Origin: Meiothermus sp. Pnk-1
Lineage (GTDB): Bacteria > Deinococcota > Deinococci > Deinococcales > Thermaceae
Assembly: GCF_003226535.1 (NCBI RefSeq)
Contig: NZ_QKOB01000019.1
Span: 1 to 37,969, forward strand
Length of the DNA: 37,969 nt
Direction: 5' to 3'
Shown here: positions 17,626-18,510 of the stretch, in pieces
Numbering within the stretch: position 1 is the first letter of the stretch
Layout of the letters: each line of letters begins with the position of its first letter
Translations under genes and position numbers: made by a program
The notes under the pieces: model-generated
What the model saw: the letters and a program-made list of their open reading frames with translations, nothing else
Databases searched by the model: none
Told to the model about the DNA's origin: nothing

Positions 17626-18510
17626 ATGCGCGTCATCGTGATCGGCACGCGGGGAAGCCTGCTTGCCTTGGCCCAAACCCGCTGGGTGGTGGAACGCCTC
17701 AAAGAAAACTGGCCGGAGGTCGAGTTCAAGACCAAGACCATTACCAACCGCAGCGATGATCCCGCCGCAGGCTTGCAAGACGCTTTGCGCAAGCGCGAGA
17801 TCGACATCGCCCTGCACCCGCTACGGGACCTGCCCCTGGCCCAAGCCGAGGGGCTCCACCTCACCGCCGTAACCCGTCGGGTTGACCCCCGCGACGCCTT
17901 CGTGGGGCGCAGCGCCAAGCGCCTCGAGGATCTCCCCGCTGGCGCGGTGGTGGGGGCGCCCTCGCTACGCCGTAAAGCCCAGCTCCTGGCCTACCGCCCC
18001 GACCTGGCGGTACGCGAGATCAAAGGCGACGTGGACGATCAGCTCGAGGCTTTGGGAACCGGCGAGTACGACGCCATCATCATGCCCGCAGGGAGCTTGT
18101 TGCGGCTCGATCTGCGCAACCGCATAGACCAGTTCGTAGATCCCGAGATCCTGCTACCCGCGCCGGGGCAGGGGGCCCTGGGGCTCGAGGTGCGGCTAGG
18201 CGATGACTACGCCGAGGAGCTGGCCTACAGCCTCAACCATCGCCCCTCCAGCGATCGGGTCTGCGCCGAGCGGGCCTTCGTTGCGGCTTTGGGCGTGGGC
18301 CTCGAGGCGCCGGTGGCGGCGTTGGCCTTTGTCGAGGACGACGGAACCCTGCGGCTCGAGGGGGGGGTTTTCTCCCCCGATGGCCGCGAGATGATCCGCG
18401 GGGAGATCGAGGGCGATGCGACGGAAGCCGTTGAGCTGGGCCATGAGCTGGCCCAGGACTTGCTGGCCGAGGGCGGGAAGGAAATCCTCGAGCAGGCTAA
18501 GGTGTATTAG
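17626..18510 (+). CDS. Hydroxymethylbilane synthase homologue lacking the cofactor cysteine (HemC-like)
   Basis: 294 residues. The overall match to porphobilinogen deaminase is clear: [22 protein letters not shown] (keeps the catalytic Asp), [41 protein letters not shown]. However, several functional positions differ from the E. coli enzyme. The segment GGCQVP, whose Cys242 holds the dipyrromethane cofactor, reads VGLEAP here (codon CTC, Leu). RGNVGTRL, which carries substrate-binding Arg149 and Arg155, reads KGDVDDQL. The flexible lid segment GGKGLFVKE is missing. It therefore probably does not make hydroxymethylbilane in the normal way; it may be a divergent paralogue with a binding or regulatory role, or a lineage variant. 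The reading frame is intact. A PerR-like regulator gene follows. Gene symbol left empty for this reason. Confidence 0.85.

Follow-up and report, generated by a model that had tools for sequence, protein, structure and literature searches.

A conserved HemC homologue of Deinococcota that lacks the cofactor-anchoring cysteine

The locus and its HemC-like protein

The window, by which we mean the whole stretch of 37,969 nucleotides that was analysed, encodes on its forward strand a homologue of the hydroxymethylbilane synthase HemC, followed by a Fur-family regulator and a Mur-ligase-type protein. A further hemC lies elsewhere in the same genome. The relevant features are:

17610..17615, + strand: putative -10-like element TACAAT, placed 10 nt upstream of the start codon as in a leaderless arrangement (sequence)
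17626..18510, + strand: Cys-less HemC homologue of 294 aa with the three-domain hydroxymethylbilane synthase fold (profile matches, alignment, AlphaFold2 model)
17749..17772, + strand: shortened active-site loop, the E. coli lid (residues about 44-62, with K55, K59 and GGKGLF) being largely deleted (alignment)
18022..18042, + strand: KGDVDDQ replacing RGNVxTR, with Lys133 at R149 and Gln139 at R155 (alignment)
18295..18312, + strand: VGLEAP replacing GGCQVP, with Leu226 at the dipyrromethane-anchoring Cys (alignment)
18637..19032, + strand: Fur-family regulator, PerR of the Thermaceae type (NF047406, 243.1 bits, cut-off 200), an inherited neighbour
19051..20292, + strand: Mur-ligase-type protein, which we take to be FolC, occupying the third position in the ancestral hemC-perR-folC order (neighbourhood comparison)
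contig C6, 230731-231642: second hemC, with the Cys and the listed catalytic residues present

The window gene is an intact, strongly conserved HemC relative without the cofactor cysteine. Its frame reads open at full length, as an earlier note on this DNA had stated; a GTG 63 nt upstream would lengthen it, and the orthologues start at the ATG of 17626. A TANNNT sequence 6-10 nt before the ATG, a spacing that follows the rule for leaderless starts, is found in all 46 copies listed from family f1 (TAATAT or similar in the Meiothermus orthologues), and a scan of 17380-19100 for terminators found none. The TIGR00212 hemC profile matches the protein with 248.5 bits (cut-off 164) over model positions 1-292 of 293, and a Pfam scan detects both HemC domains (PF01379 and PF03900). 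All 17 distinct sequence matches in the PDB are hydroxymethylbilane synthases or porphobilinogen deaminases. An AlphaFold2 model, computed from an alignment of the window protein and 41 relatives, has a mean pLDDT of 95.3 and a pTM of 0.91; it superimposes on E. coli HemC 1pda with a TM-score of 0.95 and on 2ypn with a Z of 41.4 (rmsd 1.4 Å over 290 residues), in line with the earlier note's view that the rest of the HemC fold remains.

Domains 1 and 2 share their fold with the type II periplasmic binding proteins and LysR effector domains (Z about 11, with 8-18% identity among the matches listed), which are known to use it for binding ligands without catalysis; however, HemC adds a third domain, and the Pfam scan recovers no DNA-binding domain in the window protein. 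The PRK01066 (NF002202) model, presumably that of the Chlamydia-type HemC, gives a weak match over the first two domains (82.9 bits, far below the cut-off of 251). A search of plasmids for window-type proteins recovered only ordinary HemC of <60% identity.

In the classic textbook example of such chemistry, HemC itself assembles the covalent cofactor that it uses, attached to a single cysteine that does not vary. Residues are numbered here as in E. coli HemC, transferred through the Kosakonia HemC L095, which we take to be equal in length to the E. coli protein. For the latter, passages of PMC3945110 describe Cys242 as carrying the dipyrromethane cofactor, the D84A and D84N mutations as abolishing activity, K55Q and K59Q as altering it, and arginines as touching the acetate and propionate side chains. 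In the window protein the C242 column holds Leu226 (context LGVGLEAPV), as previously noted, and the two substrate-binding arginines that had been reported as replaced are those at R149 and R155: within the set R11, R131, R132, R149, R155 and R176 only these have changed, to Lys and Gln respectively. By alignment S13, Q198 and G199 are also kept, the catalytic D84 survives as Asp68, and the counterpart of K83 is Arg67. E. coli residues 53-62, which include GGKGLF, have no counterpart, so the lid is indeed missing as claimed, but in the Cys-bearing Thermus orthologue this loop is already four residues shorter. Measured against a functional HemC, the window protein thus has D84 and lacks the Cys, the full arginine set and the K55/K59 loop. 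The Cys, D84, K83, R131, R132, R155 and R176 are present in 62/62 non-Deinococcota outgroup HemC proteins, these being what is left of 80 named loci, picked by similarity to the window protein and hence no random sample, after removal of 2 with frame trouble and 16 from Deinococcota. A sequencing or assembly error at the Cys codon was ruled out, the sister genome G001 having the same Leu and 39 further copies other residues.

A catalytic second copy and the distribution of the two types

The window copy is not the genome's only hemC, a candidate situation that the copy on contig C6 rules out. That normal second hemC, which the earlier note had proposed to look for, encodes a protein that shares 38% identity with the window protein within the BLAST-aligned part. 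It sits between glutamyl-tRNA reductase-like and uroporphyrinogen-III synthase-like frames (both below the NCBIfam cut-offs, the latter above Pfam's), with HemB (232415-233377) and HemE (235386-236384) following closely, giving the cluster order hemA-hemC-hemD-hemB. Since it retains the Cys and the catalytic residues, the window copy is dispensable for catalysis.

We surveyed relatives among 111 genomes, comparing resident copies (type A), hem-cluster copies (type B, or another type in genus g2) and the outgroups. The Cys was scored in fetched A copies only, corresponding to 6 genomes of f4 and 18 of f5, with G090 and G091 of genus g22 outside this set; among the second copies of f5 and those of the B-only genomes G073 and G110, it was scored in G082, G083, G095, G099 and G108 only, the others lying above the hemC cut-off. 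Within this scope the Cys is present in 37/37 A copies from Thermus, g5 (1), f4 (6) and f2 (4), Thermus having an A-type match in 26 of 27 genomes (24 intact frames, 2 split). It is absent from 41/41 A copies of five lineages, namely the window's genus (2), g2 (2), Meiothermus (17), f3 (2) and f5 (18), the last of which we take to be the Truepera lineage; the alignment of orthologues thereby extends the initial observation to two Cys-less clades. The B or g2-type copies examined have the Cys, D84 and the arginines in 29 of 29 cases. We found no paper on a Cys-less HemC copy in the open-access library searched.

Loss of the Cys tracks redundancy: a further full-length hemC was found in none of the 37 genomes whose A copy bears the Cys, and a second hemC above the cut-off accompanies the Cys-less copy in 33 of 41 genomes. 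The apparent extras among the former are a fragment of 86 residues where a contig of G052 ends and two halves of one gene in G029 and G038. Six of the remaining 8 genomes (G057, G089, G092, G093, G094 and G107) have no HemB, HemD or HemE, and no HemL above the cut-off. The other two are G013, an assembly of 190 contigs in which HemD was found and HemB was not, and G020, which has HemB and HemD and whose contig stops about 100 bases past hemD, where hemC would start. Among the 41 there is no well-covered genome whose pathway rests on the Cys-less copy. This, together with the canonical HemC in the window's genome, makes it very improbable that the window protein is a still-active hydroxymethylbilane synthase holding its cofactor in another way. 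The catalytic Asp and most arginines do remain in the window's genus, as that account would need; however, C242, R149, R155 and the lid are gone, the Asp itself is lost in Meiothermus and g2, and in E. coli the D84A and D84N substitutions inactivate the enzyme, according to the same part of PMC3945110. The converse pattern is seen in the Meiothermus genome G007 (99% complete), which has the hem-cluster copy and no A copy, and the A-type protein is hence not essential there.

Two side observations emerged from the survey. The second HemC of genus g2 (G002:C7:342289-343254 and G003:C13:48331-49230, 339 bits in G003) differs in having a GGKGLF lid and lies near a higher-scoring HemB, in place of the Meiothermus-type hem-cluster copy; the hem genes of this genus seem to have been replaced. 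In G029 (L079, about 5240-5260) and G038, Thermus parvatiensis RL (L080, about 5785-5800, - strand), the sole hemC frame is broken at the same G run after about codon 43, with the downstream part including the Cys conserved, which reflects either a homopolymer sequencing error or real frameshifting.

Descent, selection and gene neighbourhood

The single-copy HemC of Thermus, encoded in the order hemC-perR-folC, is 62-67% identical to the window protein and differs from it in having the Cys, D84, all the arginines and a short lid. Shared synteny and tree position identify the window gene as vertically orthologous to this sole Cys-bearing HemC of Thermus; the hem-cluster copy belongs to a separate HemC clade, with the window copy being the old resident gene. 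The earlier suggestion of a neofunctionalised paralogue is thus supported in that a conserved copy has lost catalysis, but it is the resident gene that did so and not the copy in the separate hem-cluster clade.

In the tree, one Cys-less clade, beside Thermus and g5, unites the window's genus with g2 and Meiothermus, and a second one, near the Cys-bearing f2, holds the copies of f3 and f5. Bootstrap trees (n=200) need 2 Cys changes at both the 5% and the 95% points, one being enough in 0% of them. A single ancestral loss was rejected (AU p 0.0119), joining all Cys-less copies costing 28.8 log-likelihood units. These results point to loss of the Cys at least twice within the phylum Deinococcota, with the qualifications that f5 is on a long branch (0.92 changes per column on its stem) and that the starred branches force at least one origin in the careful tree and 2 in the quick tree.

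The two clades differ in what is left of the active site. The Cys is replaced by Leu, Ile or Asp in Thermaceae (Asp in 17/17 Meiothermus orthologues, Ile or Leu in 2/2 of g2) versus Pro, Ser, Ala, Gly and others in f5. The cleft in the window's family is half-emptied: R11, S13, R131 (not in g2), R132, R176, Q198 and G199 remain, and Cys242, R149 and the lid are gone, as is D84 outside the window's genus. The claim that the catalytic Asp persists therefore holds for the window protein but not for Meiothermus (His in 12, Tyr in 5) or g2 (Tyr in 2). In the Meiothermus Cys-less copies R11, S13, R131 and R132 are kept in 17/17 and R176 in 16/17. The f5 copies have R131 in 18/18 and R11 in 15/18, R132 has become Asp in 18/18, and R149 and R176 are lost.

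The Cys-less genes of the window's family are under purifying selection. By the Nei-Gojobori method, with pairs of pS <0.05 excluded, the Cys-less copies have a median dN/dS of 0.107 in Meiothermus (135 pairs) and values of 0.053 in the window's genus and 0.057 in g2 (one pair each). The corresponding values are 0.120 for the catalytic orthologues of Thermus (275 pairs), 0.188 for the Meiothermus hem-cluster copies (120 pairs), and 0.117 for the g2 second copy and 0.255 for the hem-cluster copy of the window's genus (one pair each). A pseudogene was rejected on the intact frames and the dN/dS of 0.053-0.107 in the window's family. A redundant gene heading for loss and conserved only through short time could account for the absence of the copy from G007; this is hardly credible, however, given an uninterrupted frame in all 41 Cys-less copies of five lineages, the low dN/dS (0.05-0.11) over synonymous distances near 0.4-0.85 in the window's family, and the conserved -10-like element. 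The f5 copies are far more diverged, with dN/dS of 0.14-0.44 (8 pairs), and their protein may have a role different from that in the window's family.

The ancestral hemC-perR-folC order of Thermus, g5 and f4 is partly kept in the window's family. A perR gene lies downstream of 33/33 Cys-bearing copies in Thermus, g5 and f4, as well as 18 of the 21 Cys-less copies in the window's genus (g1), g2 and Meiothermus (g3); in the three exceptions the locus ends too soon (G006) or none was found beside the gene (G010, G014). In f5, none of the 18 copies has perR downstream, and all 18 (L110-L127) lie just downstream and on the same strand (gap 49-425 nt) of metK, assigned by Pfam as encoding S-adenosylmethionine synthetase. 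Neither perR nor metK was found adjacent to the f2 and f3 copies. PerR as a functional partner, through which the earlier note had envisaged a regulatory role, finds no specific support: the same neighbour surrounds the Cys-bearing HemC of Thermus and f4, and adjacency is weak evidence because the neighbourhood was inherited from the catalytic ancestor.

Carriers without the haem pathway and a possible second role

Some carriers of the Cys-less protein appear to lack the pathway. In g22, a Truepera-type genus of f5, a HemC homologue is present in 6/6 genomes (84-115 bits), these being 91-98% complete and one of them a single contig at 98%; all 4 of the homologues fetched are Cys-less. Searches of the 6 genomes recovered no canonical HemC, HemB, HemD or HemE, and no HemL above the cut-off, and the same searches recover hem genes in the relatives G108, G099 and G083 and in most control genomes. 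Similarly, G057 (f3) has a Cys-less copy (G057:C54:53593-54444, 205.5 bits versus the hemC equivalog cut-off of 164), and a search of this genome found no HemB, HemD, HemE or other HemC. Where the whole pathway has been lost, a retained protein cannot serve to polymerise porphobilinogen made by the cell itself, and the Cys-less protein probably has another job than the haem pathway, independent of tetrapyrrole synthesis.

These genomes also bear on tetrapyrrole binding, which had been proposed for the window protein. It could apply in the window's family, whose arginine rack is largely retained, but the pathway-less carriers imply that it cannot be the general role. A more specific version would have the protein bind porphobilinogen, hydroxymethylbilane or a porphyrinogen non-covalently, as a sensor or chaperone that signals to the haem or peroxide response through PerR. 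Retention of R11, S13, R131, R132 and R176 in the window's genus and Meiothermus, and PerR as the next gene, are consistent with this. Yet we consider it unlikely, as the PerR adjacency dates from the catalytic state, homologues persist in genomes without HemB, HemD and HemE, and f5 has R132 changed to Asp (18/18) with R149 and R176 lost.

Five residues, W29, D194, Y201, R211 and D278 (window numbering), are near-invariant in both Cys-less and Cys-bearing A copies, but occur in only 3, 10, 0, 3 and 6%, respectively, of the 62 outgroup HemC proteins and in 0-3% of the 29 copies of B or g2 type. In the secondary structure of the model W29 lies just past the first helix and the others in helices 194-201 and 206-222 and the C-terminal helix; judged by sequence, all five appear to fall outside the catalytic cleft. 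Their conservation may reflect a second function or just a structural core common to the lineage.

We regard it as fairly probable that the window gene is the resident HemC of Deinococcota, retained as a non-catalytic protein with a second role after another HemC took over catalysis. The resident protein would have already had, or gained, a role that requires the folded three-domain clamshell and not the dipyrromethane chemistry; once the other HemC took catalysis, the catalytic residues would have been free to go, with the second role retained. Most likely it would bind either a partner protein or a small anionic ligand, its two cleft domains moving about the hinge, and the proposed conserved surface would be provided by the hinge helix, the C-terminal helix and domain 3. 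A pyrrole carboxylate is still conceivable as the ligand in Thermaceae, but hardly in f5. Against this reading, the conserved residues could be purely structural, since the copies share ancestry; G007 lives with the hem-cluster copy only; and the f5 protein is far more diverged.

The divergence of f5 also raises the alternative that neofunctionalisation occurred separately after the second HemC arrived, with different new roles in Thermaceae and the Truepera lineage. The differing neighbours (perR versus metK), the differing Cys replacements and the long f5 stem argue for it. We nevertheless judge it rather doubtful, because the near-invariant non-catalytic residues are common to both lineages and to the catalytic orthologues. 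An extension of the reading favoured above, that the ancestral HemC of Deinococcota already did two jobs, of which the one that needs neither cofactor nor tetrapyrroles was laid bare twice where a second HemC catalyses and persists in a pathway-less genus, is conceivable, although we lean somewhat against it. If true, the catalytic HemC of Thermus would still perform the second job today.

A Cys that was apparently lost twice, with purifying selection in the window's family at least as strong as on the catalytic copy, points to a use of the HemC fold other than polymerising porphobilinogen, and the availability of genera that differ in having the pathway and in carrying one copy or two makes such a function directly testable. 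There is also a warning for annotation: Cys-less copies can score above the hemC equivalog threshold and so receive the name hydroxymethylbilane synthase, which can lead to wrong pathway calls, as could happen for G057.

Farther out, the window encodes a subtilase-family peptidase with a fervidolysin-like prodomain (15470-16894) and, at 21859-24127, a Class III aminotransferase followed by an M20-type peptidase, a pair that we take to follow the LysJ-LysK pattern.
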